The notes beneath the pieces are model-generated. The model made no database searches. It was not told where the DNA came from and saw only the letters and a list, made by a program, of their open reading frames with translations. The translations under genes and the position numbers were made by a program. Of a stretch of DNA of 64,000 bases, positions 6,490 through 16,126 are shown one piece after another (position 1 is the first letter of the stretch; the number at the start of each line of letters is the position of its first letter). The stretch is from Streptosporangium becharense (GTDB lineage Bacteria > Actinomycetota > Actinomycetes > Streptosporangiales > Streptosporangiaceae), in assembly GCF_014204985.1 (NCBI RefSeq), contig NZ_JACHMP010000001.1, positions 1,550,001 to 1,614,000 on the forward strand. The letters run 5' to 3'.

Positions 6490-9400
6490 TCAAGCCCCCA
6501 GACACGCCGGGCCGAGCAGCTGCTTCAGGTCGCCCATCAACGCCGGCGACGGGGAGACGCGCAACCGGTCGTCCAGGCGGACGATGGTGGTCTTGGGGCC
6601 GTTGTGCACCTGCAGGTGCACCTCGGTGGTGCCGGGGTGGGCGGTCAGCACCTCCTTCAGCCGGCCGACCACCGGCGGCGTGCAGCGGTTCAGAGCGAGG
6701 CTGACCGAGAGCGGCCCACCGGCCTCGCGGGTCAGGTCGGGAGCGGTGACCTCCATCGCGATGATCTTGCCGACGTCCTCGCGCTTGTCCAGGCGGCCCT
6801 TGACGAAGACGATGGCGTCCTCGGCGAGGATGGTCGCGCAGAGCTGGTACGTCGACGGGAAGATCATCACCTCGATGGCACCCTCCAGGTCCTCCAGCTG
6901 GGTGAGGACCCACGTGTCGCCCTTCTTGGTGACCTTGCGCTGCAGGCCGCTCAGGATGCCGCCGACGGTGATGACCTGGCCGTCGGGGCGGCTGTCGTCC
7001 TGGAGCGCGGCGACCGAGCAGTCGGCGCCGGAGGCGAGGATGTGCTCCACGCCGAAGAGCGGATGGTCGGAGACGTAGAGGCCGAGCATCTCCCGCTCGA
7101 AGGCCAGCAGCGTGGTCTTGTCCCACTCCCCCGGTGGGATCTGCACGTCGAAGGTCTGGTCCTCGGCGCCCTCGACCGCGCCGAACAGGGAGTCCTGGCC
7201 GATCGCCTCGTTCTTCTTGATGTCGATGATCGCGTCGACGGCCTGCTCGTGCACCATCATCAGGCCCTTGCGGACATGGCTGAAGGAGTCGAACGCGCCG
7301 GCCTTGATCAGCGACTCGATGACGCGCTTGTTGCAGACGATCGCCGGGACCTTGCGCAGGAAGTCCTTGAAGTCGGCGAAACGGCCCTTCTCCCTGCGGG
7401 CGGCGATGATCCCGTCGACGACGTTGCCGCCGACGTTGCGGATCGCCGACAGGCCGAAGCGGATGTCGGTGCCGCGCGGGGTGAAGTCGAAGTCGGAGTC
7501 GTTGACGTCCGGCGGGAGCACCTTGATGCCCATGCGGCGGCACTCGTTCAGGTAGAGCGCCGACTTGTCCTTGTCGTCCTTGACCGAGGTCAGCAAGGCG
7601 GCCATGTACTCGGCCGGGTAGTTGGCCTTGAGGTAGGCCGTCCAGTAGGAGACCAGGCCGTAGGCGGCGCTGTGCGCCTTGTTGAAGGCGTAGTCGGAGA
7701 AGGGGAGCAGGATGTCCCAGAGCGTCTTGATCGCCGCAGCGGAGTAGCCGTTGTCCTTCATGCCCTTCTCGAAGGACTCGAACTGCTTGTCCAGCTCGGC
7801 CTTCTTCTTCTTGCCCATCGCGCGGCGGAGCAGGTCCGCTTTGCCGAGCGAGAATCCCGCGACCTTCTGCGCGATGGCCATGACCTGCTCCTGATAGACG
7901 ATCAGGCCGTAGGTCGTGCCGAGGATGTCGGCCAGCGACTCCTCGAACTCGGGGTGGATCGGGGTGATCTCCTGCTGGCCGTTCTTGCGCAGCGCGTAGT
8001 TGGTGTGCGAGTTGGCACCCATGGGACCCGGCCGGTACAGGGCGCCGACGGCGGAGATGTCCTCGAAGTTGTCGGGCTTCATCAGCCGCAGCAGCGAGCG
8101 CATGCCGCCGCCGTCCAGCTGGAACACCCCCAGGGTGTCGCCCCGCCCCAGCAGCTCGTAGGTCCTGCGGTCGTCCAGCGGCAGCTTGAGCAGGTCGATC
8201 ATGGTGCCGGTGTTGGCCTCGATCATCTTCAGGCAGTCGTCGATGATCGTCAGGTTGCGCAGGCCCAGGAAGTCCATCTTCAGCAGGCCGAGCGTCTCGC
8301 AGGTCGGGTAGTCGAACTGCGTGATGATCGCACCGTCGGAGTCGCGGCGCATGATCGGGATGTAGTCGGTCAGCACCTCCGACGACATGATGACGCCCGC
8401 GGCGTGCACGCCGGTCTGCCGGATCAGGCCCTCCAGGCCCTTCCCGAGGTCGATCGCCGCCTTGACGTCGACGTCTTCCTCATAGAGCTTGCGCAGCTCA
8501 CCGGCCTCGTTGTAGCGCGGGTGGCCGGAGTCGAAGATGCCCGACAGCGGGATGTCCTTGCCCATCACCGCGGGCGGGAACGCCTTGGAGACCTTGTCGC
8601 CCAGCGCGTACGGGTAGCCCAGGACGCGGGCCGCGTCCTTGATGGCCGCCTTCGCCTTGATGGTGCCGAAGGTGGCGATCATGGCGACCTTGTCCGCACC
8701 CCACTTCTCCGTGACGTAACGGATCACGTCACCGCGCCGGCGCTCGTCGAAGTCGATGTCGACGTCGGGCATGGAGACACGGTCGGGGTTGAGGAACCGC
8801 TCGAAGATCAGGCCGTGCGGCAGCGGGTCGAGGTCGGTGATGCCCAGGGCGTACGCCACCAGCGAGCCGGCGGCCGAACCACGGCCGGGACCGACGCGGA
8901 TGCCGTTCTCCTTCGCCCACATGATGAAGTCGGCGACCACGAGGAAGTAGGACGGGAAGCCCATCTGGAGGATGACGTCCAGCTCGAACTCCGCCTGCCT
9001 GCGGTGCTCCTCGTCGCACCCCTCCGGCCAGCGGCGCCTCATGCCCTCCCAGACCTGCCGGCGGAAGAACTCCTCCTCGGTCATGCCGTCGGGCACCGGG
9101 TAGGTCGGCATCAGGTTCTTGAAGGTGAACATGCCGGCCGGGTCGACCTTCTCGGCGACCAGCAGGGTGTTGCGGCAGCCCTCGGCCCACAGGTCGGAGG
9201 AGTCGATGGCGCGCATCTCGTCGGCGGTCTTGATGTAGTAGCCGCTGCCGTCGAAGCGGAAGCGGTCGGGGTCGGACAGCTGCTTGCCGGTCTGGATGCA
9301 CAGCAGCGCGTCGTGGGAGGTGGCGTCCGACTCGTAGGTGTAGTGCGAGTCGTTGGTGACCAGCGGCGGGATGCCCAGCTCCTTGGAGATGCGGGTCAGG

Positions 9401-10011
9401 CCGTCGCGGACCCGGCGCTCGATGTCGAGCCCGTGGTCCATGATCTCCAGGTAGTAGTCGTCCTTGCCGAAGATCTCCTGGTACCTCGCCGCGGCGGCGA
9501 CCGCCTCGTCGTACTGCCCCAGGCGCAGCCGGGTCTGCACCTCGCCGGACGGGCAGCCGGTGGTGGCCATCAGCCCTTCGGCGTGCTCGGCGAGGATGTC
9601 GGCGTCCATCCGGGCCCACTTGCGGACGAAGCCCTCGGTGTAGGCCCGCGAGGAGAGCTTCATCAGGTTCTTCAGGCCGCGTTCGTTCCTGGCCCAGATG
9701 GTCATGTGGGTGTAGTAGCCACCCGCGGAGACGTCGTCCTTCTTCTGGTGGGGCTCGCCCCACAGGACCGGCTTCTTCTGGTGGCGGGAGGCGGGGGCGA
9801 CGTACGCCTCGATGCCGATGATCGGCTTGATCCCCGCGCCGGTGGCCTGCCGGTAGAAGTCGTAGGCGCCGTGCATGTTGCCGTGGTCGGTGATCGCGAT
9901 GGCGGGCATGCCCAGGTCGCCGACCTGCTTGAACATCTGCTTGAGACGGGCGGCTCCGTCGAGCATGGAGTACTCCGTGTGGACATGCAGATGCACAAAC
10001 GAGTCTGACAT
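6490..10011 (-). CDS. dnaE: DNA polymerase III alpha subunit (replicative)
   Basis: 1173 residues, the usual DnaE1 length. The PHP domain is at the N-terminus ([26 protein letters not shown]). The polymerase core carries the catalytic acidic motif [16 protein letters not shown], preceded by [15 protein letters not shown]. Next come the [16 protein letters not shown] region, [14 protein letters not shown], the helix-hairpin-helix region ([10 protein letters not shown]...), an OB-fold near the C-terminus ([19 protein letters not shown]) and a short tail. It is the catalytic subunit of the chromosomal replicase. The ATG at 10011 has an upstream GGGGAGGG. It is monocistronic, with 227 bp to the upstream chorismate mutase gene. 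Confidence 0.97.
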
Positions 10012-10238: not shown

Positions 10239-11246
10239 TCAGTCGCGGGCGGCGGCGCGCCGCTCCTCGGCGAGGTGCAGACCGGCCTCGATGACGGCGT
10301 TCATGATGGGGGCCAGGCGGGCCTCGCCCAGGGTGGGAGCGCGGCGCGCCATCTCGGCGACCAGGCGGCGCTCGCGCTCCATGTCGCGTCCGGCGAAGCC
10401 GCCGACGGGCTTCAGCCGCTGGATGGTGCCGGCCAGCTCGGCCCGGCGCTCCAGGAGGACGGCGAGGGCGGCGTCGACCCGGTCGATCGCGCCGCGGGCG
10501 GCCACCACGGACTCGGGGACCTCCCTGCGGGTGACGGCCCCCACGATCCGGACGGCCTCGCGGGCGGCGAGCGTCTCCTCCGCACCGGCGTCCGGGGCCA
10601 GCAGCAGCCCGTCGGCACCCGCGGCGACGGCGGCGGCGGCCAGGGCGGGATCGGCGCCGAGATCGGCCAGGACGGGACGGCCGGACCGCTCGCGGGCGGC
10701 TCGCATCAGGGCCAGGTCGAGGGTCGTGCCCCCCGGCTCGGTGCGGCTGCCGCTCTCGCACAACATGACCCGGTCGCCGCACCCGGCCGCGCAGCGGTCG
10801 GCGACCGCCAGCCACTCCTGGAGCGTCGCGGCCGGGGCACGCCGCAGGAGCACCGGCAGACCGAGCCCCGCGGCGGCACGCACCAGCGCGGGGTCCCGCA
10901 TCTGAGCGGCGCCGAGCACCACGCCGTCGGCACCCGCCGCGGCCGGCAGATCGGCCGCCGACCGGGGCTCGGCCAGGACCGGCCCCGCCCAGCGGGCACG
11001 GACCCTGCCCAGAGCCTCGGCCATCGACTCGGCGGTGGACTCGACCGGCGACCCGGTCGGCGACTGGGCCGGGGGGCCGGTCGGCGGTTCGGCCGGGGAC
11101 CCGGCGGCGCGGGCCCGCCCGCGATGCTCGGCCGGGCTGACCCAGCGGGCGTCCGCACCGGGACCGCCGATCACCACGGCCGGTCCGGCGCCCACCGTGA
11201 GCGTGCCCACCCGTACGGCTCCGCGTTCCGGACGTGCGGTCGACAT
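10239..11246 (-). CDS. Degenerate DAHP synthase-like domain fused to AroQ-type chorismate mutase
   Basis: 335 residues. The C-terminal ~85 residues match AroQ-type chorismate mutase: AIDRVDAALAVLLERRAELA, then K in IQRLK, and the D-x2-RE-like stretch RDMERERRLV. That domain converts chorismate to prephenate for Phe/Tyr synthesis. The N-terminal ~240 residues align by pattern with type I DAHP synthase (VVIGGPG, LPVLLRRAPAATLQEWL, RVMLCESGSRT, TLDLALM, AVAAGADGLLL). The key residues are missing: the metal-ligand Cys of AGPC is Gly, the DPSHA motif is lost, and the KPRTSPY segment is replaced by a Pro/Ser-rich insert. I therefore expect mutase activity but no DAHP synthase activity; the pseudo-domain may be a regulatory or scaffold module. 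GGGAG precedes the ATG at 11246. A leader peptide and terminator lie upstream. Confidence 0.75.
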   Translation of the reverse strand: MSTARPERGAVRVGTLTVGAGPAVVIGGPGADARWVSPAEHRGRARAAGSPAEPPTGPPAQSPTGSPVESTAESMAEALGRVRARWAGPVLAEPRSAADLPAAAGADGVVLGAAQMRDPALVRAAAGLGLPVLLRRAPAATLQEWLAVADRCAAGCGDRVMLCESGSRTEPGGTTLDLALMRAARERSGRPVLADLGADPALAAAAVAAGADGLLLAPDAGAEETLAAREAVRIVGAVTRREVPESVVAARGAIDRVDAALAVLLERRAELAGTIQRLKPVGGFAGRDMERERRLVAEMARRAPTLGEARLAPIMNAVIEAGLHLAEERRAAARD

Positions 11247-11297
11247 GTCGGCTCCCGTGGTCGGCCGGCGCGCGTCCCGCGAGCCGGCGGTCGGTCA

Positions 11298-11335
11298 GAA
11301 ACAGAAAAGAGGCAGAGACTCCGCGTCTCCGCCTC
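11298..11335 (-). terminator. Intrinsic terminator (candidate attenuator) upstream of the chorismate mutase fusion
   Basis: On the minus strand an 11-bp stem, GAGGCGGAGAC with GTCTCTGCCTC (one G-T wobble), encloses a 5-base loop and is followed by TTTTCTGTTTC. This is a textbook Rho-independent terminator, unusual here for having a T-run. It lies between the leader peptide and the gene start, so it would end transcription before the gene unless relieved. Confidence 0.65.
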
Positions 11336-11368
11336 GTGCCGGCTCCGGCTGGTCGCTAGATCACGCTG

Positions 11369-11419
11369 TCACGACCGGCCCTCCGGAGCCGGCTCGGTAA
11401 ACGCGAAACAGCAAGTCAT
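11369..11419 (-). CDS. Putative leader peptide MTCCFAFTEPAPEGRS
   Basis: A 16-codon reading frame with its own Shine-Dalgarno-like AAGGTGG six bases before the ATG. It encodes two Phe codons (TTC, TTT) and two Cys codons (TGC, TGT) near the start. TTT is very rare in DNA of this composition. The 3' half of the frame forms a perfect 10-bp stem (CCGGCTCCGG with CCGGAGCCGG, minus strand) just before the intrinsic terminator. The arrangement resembles amino-acid attenuation of a Phe/Tyr pathway gene. I could not find a strong antiterminator pairing (only a 5-bp alternative), so the mechanism is not established. Confidence 0.5.
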   Translation of the reverse strand: MTCCFAFTEPAPEGRS

Positions 11420-11560
11420 GGGTTCCACCTTAGGTCATGTCCCCGGCACCCGCCACCCACTGGACATCGAGTCTCGACATATGGACAACACGGGTTCGTG
11501 CGAGTCGATCACTTTACTTGGCTGTGAGAGGATTCGGGGGTTTAGAAGGAGGTAAGCCGG

Positions 11561-14068
11561 TTGATGGCCGAAGCACAGCCCGAGGGGCGCCGTATCGCCT
11601 CCCGCTACCACCTGCTCGAAGCCATCGGCCGGGGTGGCATGGGCATCGTGTGGCGGGCCCATGACGAGTTCCTGGACCGCGAGGTCGCCATCAAGGAGGT
11701 CCGCTACGCGGACATGCTCGGCGAGGCCACCCAGGACGACTTCAACCGGCGCACCAAGCGCGAGGCTCGCGCGGCGGGGCGGCTGACCCACCCGAACGTG
11801 GTCGTCGTCCACGACGTGGTCGAGGAGGACGGGCGCCCCTGGATCGTCATGCAGCTGGTGGAGTCCCGCTCGCTCGGCAAGGTCCTGCGGCAGGACGGGC
11901 CGCTGCCGCCCCGGCGGGTCGCGGAGATCGGCCTGCAACTGCTGGACGCGCTGCGGGCCGCGCACGCCCAGGGGGTTCTGCACCGCGACGTCAAGCCGGA
12001 GAACGTGCTGCTGGCCGACGACGGCCGGGTGGTGCTGACCGACTTCGGCATCGCGACGCTGGAGGCCGAGACCGCGCTGACCATGACCGGCATCGCCGGC
12101 ACCCCCGCGTTCATCCCGCCGGAGCGGATCAAAGGCGCGAGCGCGCAGCGCGAGTCCGACCTGTGGTCGCTCGGCGCCACCCTGTACGCCGCCGTGGAGG
12201 GCAAGCCCCCGCACGACCGCGGCGGGGCCCTGCCGACCATGCACGCCATCCTGAACGACGAGCCCGCACCCCCGGTCCACGCCGGACGGCTGTCCCCGGT
12301 CCTGGAGGGGCTGCTCCGCAAGGATCCCGCCGAGCGCCTGACCTACTCCCAGGCCGAACGGCTGCTGCGCAGGGCGATCGAGGAGGAGAGCAAGCCCGAG
12401 CGGCCCCGGCCCGCCAGAACCGCCGTCATGCCGGTCGCGGGCCCGGCGGACGAGACCGACCCGGGGGCCCGTTTCCGGTCCGAGGAGGTGCCGGAGACCG
12501 GCGCGAAGCTGGGCGGCGTACCCGGCGTACCCGGCGTACCCGCCGCGTCCGGCGGCGCGGACCCGAAGGCCGCCGCACCCGGGGCTCCGGCCCCGAAGAC
12601 ACCCGCCTCCGGTGCCCCCGCCCCGAAGACGCGCGGACCCGCGGCGTCCGGCGGTACGGCTCCGGAGAAGCCCGCCCCCGCGCCGTCGCGCCGCGAGGAG
12701 GCGGAGGAGAGCGCGGCCGTGGCGCCTGCCGCCACCGCCCGGGAGGGGAAGAGCGGCGGGAAGGCGGGGAACCCGCCCGCCCCGGCACCGGCCCGCAAGC
12801 CCGGCGCGGTCTCCGCCGGCGACGACGCCGAGGCCGACCGGCCCACCACCAAGGCCAGGCCGGTGACCGGCGCGGGCCGACCCGCTCCCACGGCCAAGTT
12901 CCCCGCCGCGACGGGCGAACCCCCCGCCGCGGCCGGGTCCACCGCCGCCCGGCCCTCCGCGTCCGCGACCGGCTCTTCCCCGGTGGGCTTCTCCGCGTCC
13001 GCCGCCGGGTCCACGGCCGAACCTCCCGCCGCCGGGTCCGCGGCCGGATCCCCCGCCGCCGGGTCCGCGGCCGGATCCCCCGCCGCCGGGTCCGCGGCCA
13101 AGGCGGCGGCCGAGGCGGCGAGCCCCACGTCCGCTCCGCCGTCCGGCGGCAAGCCCGCGTCCACCCCGGCGCGGACGAAACCCGCCCCGTCCGCGCGGCC
13201 CAACCCCTTCCCTCCGGTGGGACGCACCCCCGTGACACGCGCGCCGGAGCCCGTCCCGGCCGCCCGCACCGAACCCGCTCCCCGTCCGGAGCCGGCGACC
13301 TCCTCCTACGACGACTACGGCTCCGGCATCCCCATGGTCACCTCGCGGGAGCCGGAATCCCGGCCGGCCCCGATCAAACGGGGCCTGCTGGTGCTCCTGC
13401 CCGCGCTGCTGATCGTCGGTGGCGTCGCCGGGTGGCTCGGCATGCGCAGCAGTGAGATGGAGCGGACCCAGCGGAAACACCCGGCCACGTCGGAGTCGCC
13501 GTCCGGTGGGTCGAGCGAGTCCGGGAGCCGGGGCAAGGGGGAGAAGGCGTCCCCGGGAAGCTCGGCCGGCTCCCAGTCGCCCGAGTCGCCGTCCTCGCCG
13601 AGCCCCACGAAGTCGAAGCCGAAGTCCGCCCTGCCCGACGGCTGGCACACGCACAAGGACCCCAACGGCTTCTCCATCGGCCTGCCCAAGGGCTGGAAGG
13701 TGGACAAGCGGCCCGGTCAGCAGGTCTGGTTCCGCGGGCCGAACCGGTCGAGCTACGTCATGGTCGAGTACACCGAGAACCCCGGCCCCGACCCGAAGCA
13801 GGACTGGTACGACCAGGAGCCCGTCGTCCGCGGCTCCTTCTCCGGATACAAGCGGATCCGGATCGAGAAGGCCGACTACATGAAGAAGGCCGCCGACTGG
13901 GAGTTCACCTGGAACATGAGCTCGGGCAAGGCCCGCGTGCTCAACCGGGGGTTCGTCACCAAGGGCGGCCGGGGCTACGCGATCTACTGGCACACCCTGG
14001 CCAAGGACTGGAAGAAGAACTTCCACTACTTCGAGGGGTTCGCCGCGACGTTCTCCTCGAAGAAGTGA
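11561..14068 (+). CDS. Receptor Ser/Thr protein kinase with extracellular GW-type domain (1)
   Basis: 835 residues. The kinase domain spans about residues 16-280: glycine loop GRGGMGIVWRA, invariant Lys45 in AIKEV, catalytic HRDVKPEN (Asp143), DFG in TDFGIA, GTPAFIPPE, and SDLWSLG. A long Ala/Pro/Gly-rich cytoplasmic linker (about 285-600) includes a 27-bp tandem repeat. One TM helix lies at about 604-628, then a Ser-rich spacer and a ~140-residue extracellular domain (GWHTHKDPNGFSIGLPKGW ... ADWEFTWN ... YAIYWHT). That domain recurs in the kinase at 14141, so it is probably a sensor for an unknown ligand. AAGGAGG precedes the start; TTG at 11561 (8 bases from it) or ATG at 11564 could be used. 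It is divergent from the chorismate mutase leader. Confidence 0.88.
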   Translation: MMAEAQPEGRRIASRYHLLEAIGRGGMGIVWRAHDEFLDREVAIKEVRYADMLGEATQDDFNRRTKREARAAGRLTHPNVVVVHDVVEEDGRPWIVMQLVESRSLGKVLRQDGPLPPRRVAEIGLQLLDALRAAHAQGVLHRDVKPENVLLADDGRVVLTDFGIATLEAETALTMTGIAGTPAFIPPERIKGASAQRESDLWSLGATLYAAVEGKPPHDRGGALPTMHAILNDEPAPPVHAGRLSPVLEGLLRKDPAERLTYSQAERLLRRAIEEESKPERPRPARTAVMPVAGPADETDPGARFRSEEVPETGAKLGGVPGVPGVPAASGGADPKAAAPGAPAPKTPASGAPAPKTRGPAASGGTAPEKPAPAPSRREEAEESAAVAPAATAREGKSGGKAGNPPAPAPARKPGAVSAGDDAEADRPTTKARPVTGAGRPAPTAKFPAATGEPPAAAGSTAARPSASATGSSPVGFSASAAGSTAEPPAAGSAAGSPAAGSAAGSPAAGSAAKAAAEAASPTSAPPSGGKPASTPARTKPAPSARPNPFPPVGRTPVTRAPEPVPAARTEPAPRPEPATSSYDDYGSGIPMVTSREPESRPAPIKRGLLVLLPALLIVGGVAGWLGMRSSEMERTQRKHPATSESPSGGSSESGSRGKGEKASPGSSAGSQSPESPSSPSPTKSKPKSALPDGWHTHKDPNGFSIGLPKGWKVDKRPGQQVWFRGPNRSSYVMVEYTENPGPDPKQDWYDQEPVVRGSFSGYKRIRIEKADYMKKAADWEFTWNMSSGKARVLNRGFVTKGGRGYAIYWHTLAKDWKKNFHYFEGFAATFSSKK
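13028..13099 (+). repeat. 27-bp tandem repeat in kinase linker
   Basis: About 2.7 copies of a 27-bp unit encode AAGSAAGSP in the disordered linker of the first kinase. It is in frame and of low complexity. Confidence 0.75.
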
Positions 14069-14140: not shown

Positions 14141-16126
14141 ATGACGGAAAGAAAGGTCGCGGGCCGCTACCGGCTGCTCGAACCCCTCGGTGAGGGGGGC
14201 ATGGGCGTGGTCTGGCGTGCCCACGACGAGCTCCTCGACCGGGTCGTCGCGGTCAAGGAGGTCCACTACCGGGGAGTGGGTGAGGAGGCTCGCGCCGATC
14301 TGAACCGGCGCACGATCCGCGAGGCCCGGACCGCCGGGCGGCTCGACCACCCCTCCGTGGTCGTCGTCCACGACGTGGTCGAGGAGGACGGGCGCCCCTG
14401 GATCGTCATGCAGCTGGTCCGGTCCCGGTCGCTGGGCGAGACCGTCCGCTCCGGCGGGCCGCTCCCTCCCGAGCGGGTGGCGGCGATCGGGCTGCGCGTG
14501 TTGAGCGCGCTGCGTGCCGCGCACGACGCCGGAGTCCTGCACCGCGACGTCAAACCGGAGAACGTGCTGCTGGCCGACGACGGCCGGGTGGTGCTGACCG
14601 ACTTCGGCATCGCCTCCATGACGCAGGAGGCGGGCATCACCCGCACCGGCGGCGTGGTCGGCACCCCCGCGTTCCTGCCGCCGGAGCGGCTGCACAACCT
14701 GCCCGCCACCCCCGAGTCGGACCTGTGGTCCCTGGGGGCGACGCTGTACGCGGCGCTGGAGGGCCGGCCGCCGTTCGAGCGTGCCACGCCCGCCGCGACC
14801 ATGATGGCCGTCCTCAACGGCGAGCCGAGCCCGATGTCCCACACCGGCCCGCTGGCCACCGTGATCCTCGGCCTGCTGGCGGGGGATCCGGCCGCGCGGA
14901 TGACGGCGGAGCAGGCCGAGGCCCTGCTGAGCCAGGCCGAGCGGGGCGGCGGCACCTCCCCCGGGGGGAACACCCCGCACCGCCCGACGCTGCCCCTGCA
15001 GCCCGACGCCACGGCCTACGGCTTCCCCACCCCCTACGGCGTGCAACCGCCCTTCGGCGCAGCACCCCCCGGGGAACACCCCACCCACAGCGGACACCAG
15101 GGCCACGGCGTACAGCCGCCCTTCGGCGCAGCACCCCCCGGGGAACACCCCACCCACAGCGGACACCAGGGCCACGGCGTACAGCCGCCCTTCGGCGCAG
15201 CACCCCCCGGGGAACACCCCACCCACAGCGGACACCAGGGCCACGGCGTACAGCCGCCCTTCGGCGCAGCACCCCCTGAGGAACACCCCACCCACAGCGG
15301 ACACCAGGGCCAGCAGGGCCACCAGGGCCCTCCGCCGCAACCGCCGTACCCGGCCGCTCCGACCCGGCACGGGTATTCACCGTACGACTCCCAGCCCCCG
15401 CGGCCGGAAGTCTGGCCGCAGCAGGCTTCGCACGGCGCCGAGGGCGGGCACGAGCCGGTGAGGCGGTCGCGGGCCGGACGGCCGGTGCTCCTGATCGGGG
15501 TGGTCGCACTGGTGGCGGCGGTCGGGGTCGGCGGATGGCTGGCCGTGCGCGGCACGGGCGGCGCGACGGACGACCCGGGCGGCACGCGGACGACCGCTCC
15601 GGTCGCCGGCGGCCGGACGGACTCCGCCGAGACTCCCGAGCCGTCTGCGGAGGAGACCCCCGAGGCGACCCCCACCCCCAGCTCGAAGATCCCCGCCGGC
15701 TGGAAGGTGCACCGCGACCCGCTGGGCTTCTCCGTCGCGGTGCCCCGCGGCTGGGAGGTCACCTACTCCAAGGGCCGCAACCGGGTGGAGTTCCGGGAGC
15801 CGGGGTCCGAGGCCTTCCTGTGGATCGAGTCGACCGAAGACCCCGAGAAGGACCCGCTGCGGCACTGGGAGAAGGTGGAGCAGGCCGGGACGGCCCAGAA
15901 CGTGTGGCCCGAGTACGAGCGGGTCGGCCTGACCGAGCTGACCTACCAGGGTGTGCCCGCCGCCGACTGGGAGTTCACCTACGTCAAGGACGGCGTCCGC
16001 AGGCATGTGCTGGACCGCGGTTTCCGCACCCGCGAGGACAATCCGTACGCGATCTACTGGGAGAGCCCCGATTCGGAGTGGGACTCCTCCTACTTCGACC
16101 GGTTCGTCAGGACCTTCCGGCCGTGA
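14141..16126 (+). CDS. Receptor Ser/Thr protein kinase with extracellular GW-type domain (2)
   Basis: 661 residues, paralogous to the preceding kinase. It has G-loop GEGGMGVVWRA, Lys39, HRDVKPEN with Asp136, TDFGIA, GTPAFLPPE and SDLWSLG. The juxtamembrane linker (about residues 280-440) is Pro/His/Gln-rich and contains four copies of a 23-residue repeat. A TM helix lies at about 446-468 (VLLIGVVALVAAVGVGGW). The extracellular domain (GWKVHRDPLGFSVAVPRGW ... ADWEFTYV ... YAIYWES) matches that of the first kinase along its length. The two genes are tandem, 72 bp apart, and probably arose by duplication. The ATG at 14141 has weak GGAA-type sequence upstream. Substrates are unknown; in actinobacteria such kinases often phosphorylate division and wall proteins. 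Confidence 0.9.
   Translation: MTERKVAGRYRLLEPLGEGGMGVVWRAHDELLDRVVAVKEVHYRGVGEEARADLNRRTIREARTAGRLDHPSVVVVHDVVEEDGRPWIVMQLVRSRSLGETVRSGGPLPPERVAAIGLRVLSALRAAHDAGVLHRDVKPENVLLADDGRVVLTDFGIASMTQEAGITRTGGVVGTPAFLPPERLHNLPATPESDLWSLGATLYAALEGRPPFERATPAATMMAVLNGEPSPMSHTGPLATVILGLLAGDPAARMTAEQAEALLSQAERGGGTSPGGNTPHRPTLPLQPDATAYGFPTPYGVQPPFGAAPPGEHPTHSGHQGHGVQPPFGAAPPGEHPTHSGHQGHGVQPPFGAAPPGEHPTHSGHQGHGVQPPFGAAPPEEHPTHSGHQGQQGHQGPPPQPPYPAAPTRHGYSPYDSQPPRPEVWPQQASHGAEGGHEPVRRSRAGRPVLLIGVVALVAAVGVGGWLAVRGTGGATDDPGGTRTTAPVAGGRTDSAETPEPSAEETPEATPTPSSKIPAGWKVHRDPLGFSVAVPRGWEVTYSKGRNRVEFREPGSEAFLWIESTEDPEKDPLRHWEKVEQAGTAQNVWPEYERVGLTELTYQGVPAADWEFTYVKDGVRRHVLDRGFRTREDNPYAIYWESPDSEWDSSYFDRFVRTFRP
15044..15310 (+). 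repeat. Four in-frame copies of a 69-bp tandem repeat
   Basis: Units begin at 15044, 15113, 15182 and 15251. Each encodes 23 residues, QPPFGAAPPGEHPTHSGHQG followed by HGV. The copies are nearly identical at the DNA level; the fourth has Glu for Gly at one site and diverges after 20 residues. Such identity suggests recent expansion and likely copy-number variation between strains. Confidence 0.92.

Follow-up and report, generated by a model that had tools for sequence, protein, structure and literature searches.

A probable aromatic-amino-acid leader-peptide attenuator upstream of a chorismate mutase fusion gene in Streptosporangium becharense and its relatives

Introduction

In E. coli, the chorismate mutase gene pheA is preceded by a Phe leader with an intrinsic terminator. 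This leader, pheL, is listed in a review (PMC11802643), and a comparable arrangement is described for actinobacteria in Corynebacterium glutamicum, in which aroF has a Phe-Tyr-Phe leader (PMC4046766) and in which, according to the same review, aroF transcription rises under Phe limitation (PMC11802643). The trp and leuS attenuators of Streptomyces and Corynebacterium are described as a leader peptide and a terminator with an antiterminator hairpin (Seliverstov 2005, PMC1262725), and classical attenuation, in which stalling at regulatory codons allows an antiterminator, is described for ilvB1 of M. tuberculosis (PMC13236596, 2026). Several amino acid leaders of S. lividans are leaderless (PMC8079986). 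As far as the accessible text of the 2005 actinobacterial survey goes, it states that conserved structures are absent ahead of Phe and Tyr operons (PMC1262725). In a literature search with most subscription papers outside its coverage, we found no paper on a leader before an actinobacterial chorismate mutase (CM) gene.

Here, we analyzed a 64,000-nt stretch of DNA from Streptosporangium becharense (the window), in which a first-pass annotation had proposed an attenuator of a chorismate mutase fusion gene. Judged from the window and its relatives, the element is very probably an aromatic-amino-acid leader-peptide attenuator.

Results

A short Phe frame and a terminator precede the fusion gene

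The gene downstream of the leader encodes a product of 335 residues with PF00793 (DAHP_synth_1) and PF01817 (CM_2) above the cut-offs, in agreement with its initial identification as chorismate mutase. The N-terminal part is 31% identical, over the aligned stretch, to the DAHP synthase paralogue of the same genome (G000:C1:1687111), and the GPCAVE and KPRTS sequences of this paralogue, which we take to be catalytic motifs of DAHP synthase, are absent from it. Because these motifs are missing, the DAHP-synthase-like part looks non-catalytic, and the N-terminal half is likely a non-catalytic DAHP synthase relative fused to chorismate mutase. The protein was matched in 147/150 family genomes, a count that includes matches to the DAHP-synthase part alone. 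The parts of the locus are as follows.

11427..11432, minus strand: most likely a -10 promoter box, TAAGGT, 7 nt 5' of the leader ATG (sequence; TAnnnT conservation)
11369..11419, minus strand: leader peptide frame of 16 codons, MTCCFAFTEPAPEGRS followed by the stop (sequence; plan shared with 29/29 other family loci first examined)
11405-11407 and 11399-11401, minus strand: leader Phe codons TTC and TTT, respectively (sequence)
11402..11414, minus strand: strand a, the codon strand TTGCTG..TCGCG, partner of a' in structure A (folding; pair counts)
11383..11393, minus strand: strand b, GCCGGCTCCGG, partner of b2 or b' (inverted repeats, folding, pair counts)
11374..11381, minus strand: strand b2, GGGCCGGT, a possible partner of b in structure A (98.4% of cells pairable)
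11353..11365, minus strand: strand a', CGTGATCTAGCGA, partner of a in structure A; its end overlaps c' (CGACC)
11338..11348, minus strand: strand b', CCGGAGCCGGC, partner of b (structure B) or of d; it stops 2 nt before the terminator stem
11299..11335, minus strand: intrinsic terminator with stem GAGGCGGAGAC/GTCTCTGCCTC and tail TTTTCTGTTT (terminator scan, stem covariation)
11281..11288, minus strand: strand d, GCCGGCTC, complement of 11338-11345 (b'); such pairing would enclose the terminator
11264..11288, minus strand: possible hairpin d:e in the interval between terminator and gene start (inverted repeats)
10239..11246, minus strand: regulated gene, a fusion of a degenerate DAHP-synthase-like domain and chorismate mutase (CM_2), with SD GGGAG at 11252-11256

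The first-pass annotation had rested on a 16-codon frame with Phe (TTC, TTT) and Cys (TGC, TGT) codons, a 10-bp stem, and an 11-bp stem with a T-run, and these features were recovered: the frame, with its codons, lies at minus-strand 11419-11369, the 10-bp stem is the inverted repeat CCGGCTCCGG/CCGGAGCCGG, which forms part of longer 21-nt arms (11376-11396 and 11335-11355, 81% complementary), and the terminator scan returned the 11-pair stem 11335-11309 followed by TTTTCTGTTT. The scan found two terminator-like sites in 2 kb, both representing one hairpin, compared with 0.3 expected in shuffles. The 231-nt region folds with a z of -1.89 and 8/200 shuffles fold equally well; because this gain over shuffles is modest, the case rests on conservation.

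In the surroundings, 6490-10011 (minus strand) encodes DNA polymerase III alpha domains, and by eye the CM leaders L098, L099, L107, and L085 from other lineages likewise lie near a dnaE-like ORF. On the plus strand, a protein kinase gene (PF00069) at 14141-16126 carries the repeat GVQPPFGAAPPGEHPTHSGHQGH four times, the last copy slightly altered, and a second kinase gene lies at 11561-14068.

The leader plan recurs across families

At 29/29 other loci among the 30 best protein matches, the frame, the hairpin, and the terminator were all present. Covariance model 1, built from 24/30 sequences of family leaders (alignment A1), matched 227/341 genomes of the window's family (E<=0.01), so that the conservation of codons and stems in relatives by which the earlier proposal was to be judged is indeed found. 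Class-wide, model 1 matched 68/394 genomes at E<=0.1, a number that includes family members and some chance matches, and model 2 (R2), built from DAHP synthase leaders, matched 67/394 class genomes at E<=0.01. The leaders among the matches listed come from Mycobacterium, Mycolicibacterium, Glycomyces, Jiangella and relatives, Dactylosporangium, and Jongsikchunia as well as from Nonomuraea, Microbispora, Microtetraspora, Sphaerimonospora, and a few Streptomyces. In Mycolicibacterium houstonense (L190), the leader pattern occurs twice on one strand, at 1332-1396 and 2358-2422, ~1 kb apart and with an identical peptide. The window's own genome gave one good match with either model and no convincing second copy; the next-best R2 place (L308, E 0.09) was rejected as it has no leader. 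When the window and five relatives were searched, no Rfam family, the T-box covariance model included, reached its gathering score, and the remaining matches were weak and unrelated.

For the counts below, we used 205 leader loci (178 distinct sequences over 100 nt, repeated genomes included) and a non-redundant set of 102 leaders to which the window, 85% identical to L007 over 120 nt, was added back. Rows removed beforehand were L106 (a weak match in apparent coding sequence), and L133, L147, L148, and L308 (lacking a start codon with a -10 box), and weak class matches such as those of G353, G398, G513, G552, G553, G490, G432, and G473 were left out. The alignments comprise 35/40 DAHP synthase leaders (A2, without L091, L093, L094, L095, and L097), 56/60 CM leaders and the window (A3, without L075, L085, L142, and L143), and 31/40 sequences (A4).

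Leader codons follow the pathway branch

Sorted by tblastn with three references, the gene after the leader is DAHP synthase at 110 of the 205 loci, CM at 91, and tyrosyl-tRNA synthetase at one, with three unsorted; TIGR00034 (aroFGH) was above the cut-off for three DAHP synthases, TIGR00234 for tyrS, and CM_2 for one CM gene from another family. Ten more leaders, class matches of model 2, all precede DAHP synthase. The searches were seeded with aromatic leaders, and distant leaders before other genes could thus be missed.

DAHP synthase feeds all three aromatic amino acids and chorismate mutase only Phe and Tyr. Counted over leader codons 2-13, CM leaders have Phe in 91/91 cases, Tyr in 63/91, and Trp in 1/91, and DAHP synthase leaders (the 110 and the additional ten) have Tyr in 120/120, Phe in 118/120, and Trp in 94/120. 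In the non-redundant set plus the window, Trp is present in 1/61 CM leaders vs 30/40 DAHP synthase leaders (Fisher p 5e-16, shared ancestry not corrected). The codon sets fit what the pathway would predict for each branch. Leader-peptide control by Phe, as originally proposed, or by Phe and Tyr is well supported by the presence of Phe in every CM leader, by the scarcity of a Cys-Cys pair among them (3/91), and by the change of codons before DAHP synthase.

Per 12 codons, the leader frame holds 2.64 aromatic codons, and the two alternative frames hold 0.44 and 1.44 (n=102). Their pattern varies by lineage (FAF, FTF, FxF, HVF, RYAF, YWRF, WYQRF, WYAYF, RYPYF, FWRY, and FSRY), and because the aromatic positions shift in kind and order, it is apparently the aromatic codons, and not the RNA letters as such, that are under selection. 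A strict run of Phe is not required, however: 7/91 CM leaders have a single aromatic residue, several carry His, Ser, or some other residue in place of the first Phe, and L159 has Val in place of the last. In the leader before tyrS (L096, G665:C21), VLTRRVYPNGSGVSRSPARP, a Tyr codon occupies the position of Phe in other leaders; the hairpin layout is similar, and the frame is probably leaderless.

A probable -10 box lies directly upstream of the leader start

The first-pass annotation had assigned the leader its own ribosome site, AAGGTGG. This sequence was misread: the bases concerned are the -10 box TAAGGT, which stands 7 nt 5' of the ATG. In three sets of loci, 124/127, 81/81, and 10/11 have a start codon preceded by TAnnnT at 5-9 nt; the exceptions are L133 (stretch too short) and L147, L148, and L308 (weak matches without a leader). 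The spacing between box and start is always 6-8 nt in the 102 non-redundant leaders and the window, compared with such a box at 61/7931 (0.8%) control positions; this 103/103 holds by construction, as the set was chosen by the TAnnnT feature, and nearly every locus gave a single candidate. TAnnnT is the -10 consensus, and leaderless leader peptides are described in Streptomyces (PMC8079986). A -10 box this close to the ATG makes a leaderless frame probable, with the leader ATG as the most likely transcription start.

Alternative pairings and the terminator

The terminator stem pairs in 94.5% of cells and has 29 double-changed cells vs 6.7 in shuffled and at most 15 in slid controls; the T fraction after the stem is 0.52 vs 0.11 further on (n=99). 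Besides the terminator and the b':d pairs, two more sets of pairs recur in the leaders, structures A and B. Structure A consists of the pairs between the codon strand and a' and those between b and b2. In the CM rows (57), 87.9% of its cells pair vs at most 45.6% when slid, with 18 double-changed cells vs 9.4 shuffled but up to 26 slid; in the DAHP synthase rows (35), 87.8% pair, with 17 double changes vs 7.4 shuffled and at most 11 slid. Structure B pairs b with b'. In the CM rows, counted with the inner c pairs, 92.6% of cells pair and the four double-changed cells are no better than shuffles (85/500 as high); in the DAHP synthase rows, 98.2% pair without a double change. With so few double changes, structure B is conserved as sequence and is little tested by covariation in these alignments. 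Structures A and B are mutually exclusive because they have strand b in common, and B and a b':d pairing are mutually exclusive because they have b' in common. In 99/99 leaders, b' and the terminator lie -2 to +4 nt apart (search range -2 to +13). A complementarity score of b against b2 (1/103, median p 0.68) was disregarded because the stretch searched truncated b2.

The first-pass annotation had doubted that an antiterminator was present, and this doubt was justified. The terminator 5' arm is complementary to the leader downstream of the codons in 1/99 leaders at p<=0.05 (median p 0.89) and to the codon region in 0/99 (median p 0.69), as expected by chance. The 5' arm thus has no upstream partner beyond chance, the textbook antiterminator is missing, and we rejected a classical antiterminator because a conserved complement of the 5' arm was not found. 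Truncated folds calculated without a ribosome suggested pairing of the Phe codon strand with the terminator 5' arm; double changes occur in 4/57 rows, all of genus g31, and by eye the G flanking the Phe codon strand is absent in most DAHP synthase leaders. A stalled ribosome would moreover break this pairing, which is the wrong logic, and we set it aside.

To model stalling, we excluded the bases under a ribosome from equilibrium folding, assuming that its footprint reaches 12 nt from the first base of the codon in the A site (L127 omitted). Stalling at the first aromatic codon raised the computed probability of b:b' from 0.15 to 0.52 in the window and the median from 0.42 to 0.91 in 40 DAHP synthase leaders. 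In 60 CM leaders, the medians were 0.83 and 0.86 without and with a stalled ribosome, and b:b2 exceeded 0.5 in 4/60. With the ribosome placed at the last aromatic codon instead, b:b' was less probable (0.22 in the window, median 0.51 in CM leaders). As CM leaders favor b:b' either way, the computed switch is clear only for the DAHP synthase leaders and a minority of CM leaders including the window, for which stalling is computed to shift folding from A to B. In folds including the terminator, the terminator formed in every state listed except L008, in which the script misplaced an arm.

A working model and its alternatives

The frame, its codons, the promoter position, the terminator, and the pairing strands are conserved, and the codons fit the pathway. 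Our working hypothesis is that the element is probably a ribosome-controlled attenuator that senses charged aromatic tRNA, for Phe at this locus and for both Phe and Tyr in many relatives, and thereby controls how strongly the CM gene is expressed. In this model, transcription would begin at the ATG and a ribosome would immediately load on the leaderless frame. With ample Phe-tRNA, it would finish, the codon strand and b would fold onto the stop-codon region as structure A, b' would remain free, the terminator would form, and RNA polymerase would stop. If Phe-tRNA is scarce, the ribosome would stall at the Phe codons and cover the codon strand, allowing b to pair with b'. The resulting structure B would be a long helix whose end abuts the terminator base, with an overlap of at most 2 nt, and which may hinder closure of that base, giving the ON state. 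We infer that B is the ON state, acting via contact with the terminator base, because starvation should raise the level of a biosynthetic enzyme.

A bolder reading, which we regard as possible but doubtful, is that the leaders represent a distinct kind of attenuator, widespread in actinobacteria, whose switch strand has a partner on either side of the terminator, one in the preceding leader frame and one beyond it. It would control the terminator by abutting its base without stealing an arm, and the aromatic codons would be tuned to the branch: Trp, Tyr, and Phe for the common step, Phe/Tyr for chorismate mutase, and Tyr for tyrS.

Alternatively, and with rather little probability in our view, the element could be a translational attenuator in which pairing of b' with b or with d decides whether the ribosome site is open or closed, and the terminator only lowers the base level. 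Complementarity between b' and d is well above shuffles (38/102 leaders at p<=0.05, median p 0.08, mononucleotide shuffles; 37/99 in a second test; p 0.15 for the window alone); the enrichment was evaluated over 204/205 leaders and the terminator tests used 99/103. In addition, the leader L097 (G672:C2), MQRYYWFTWPARSGPVGVNLR, which precedes DAHP synthase, has no separate terminator stem and its b' and d form one hairpin, and the mycobacterial DAHP synthase leaders L089, L090, L129, and L230 can close the SD in a hairpin (e.g., TCAGGTGCC/GGCACCTGA), by which they may be under additional translational control. However, complementarity of the SD to the region that separates the terminator from the gene start is not generally enriched (8/82 at p<=0.05, median p 0.40), and we rejected SD sequestration as a general platform for this reason. 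Conservation of both the terminator stem and the U-rich tail also speaks against this reading.

We consider it improbable that the element is a ligand- or protein-binding structured RNA of the riboswitch type in which base pairing would yield the aromatic codons as a by-product. In its favor, GTTTA, CTAGCGACC, and similar stretches are highly conserved, and in the four genus g31 rows mentioned above, the terminator arm covaries with the last Phe codon at its third base. Against it, the codons stay aromatic although their positions and types vary, and the set of codons depends on the downstream gene. That the terminator is constitutive and unregulated, as the lack of a competing antiterminator might suggest, is very improbable given the conserved frame, aromatic codons, and alternative pairing strands. 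Cys control, which the first-pass annotation had kept as an alternative based on the two Cys codons of the window leader, can be dismissed with near certainty because a Cys-Cys pair is present in only 3/91 CM and 0/120 DAHP synthase leaders and every sorted downstream gene (202/205) is aromatic.

Discussion

If the working hypothesis of a ribosome-controlled attenuator is correct, attenuation by Phe, Tyr, and Trp extends beyond C. glutamicum to several families including mycobacteria and filamentous actinomycetes, and the leaders contain a readable code in which the codons reveal which branch is sensed. The missing antiterminator also raises a testable question, i.e., whether a helix that merely touches the base of a terminator can control it.

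Compared with classical attenuators of the trp/pheA type, the leaders have a frame with regulated codons and an intrinsic terminator (with no separate stem in L097), while an antiterminator capturing the terminator 5' arm was not found (1/99 and 0/99 at p<=0.05); because this defining feature was looked for and not found, we classify the element as amino-acid-attenuator-like and not as a proven classical attenuator. A possible counterpart of the classical 1:2 hairpin is structure A, in which 87.8-87.9% of cells pair but which is rarely the favored fold of CM leaders. E. coli pheA resembles the element described here in having a Phe leader and an intrinsic terminator before a chorismate mutase gene; our leaders differ in being probably leaderless, in having one or two Phe codons, and in having no strand that competes for the terminator 5' arm. 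Similarly, the trp and leuS attenuators of Streptomyces and Corynebacterium have in common with our leaders a leader peptide and a terminator and differ in their antiterminator hairpin (PMC1262725). In the LEU element of leuA, as here, the leader codons join a conserved fold extending beyond the leader frame; in LEU, the codon run pairs with the SD (PMC1262725), and in our leaders, the SD is complementary to strand b in 14/82 at p<=0.05 (median p 0.23). S. lividans leuA is, in the accessible text, described without a typical terminator (PMC8079986).

C. glutamicum aroR/aroF is likewise an aromatic leader peptide before an actinobacterial aromatic pathway gene (PMC4046766), a likeness of leader peptide and gene as described. 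A leader before DAHP synthase, as in aroR/aroF, is found at 110/205 of the related loci, and the window's own gene is a CM fusion. In the accessible descriptions, aroR is placed only before DAHP synthase; here, related leaders also precede CM genes and one tyrS, in many families.
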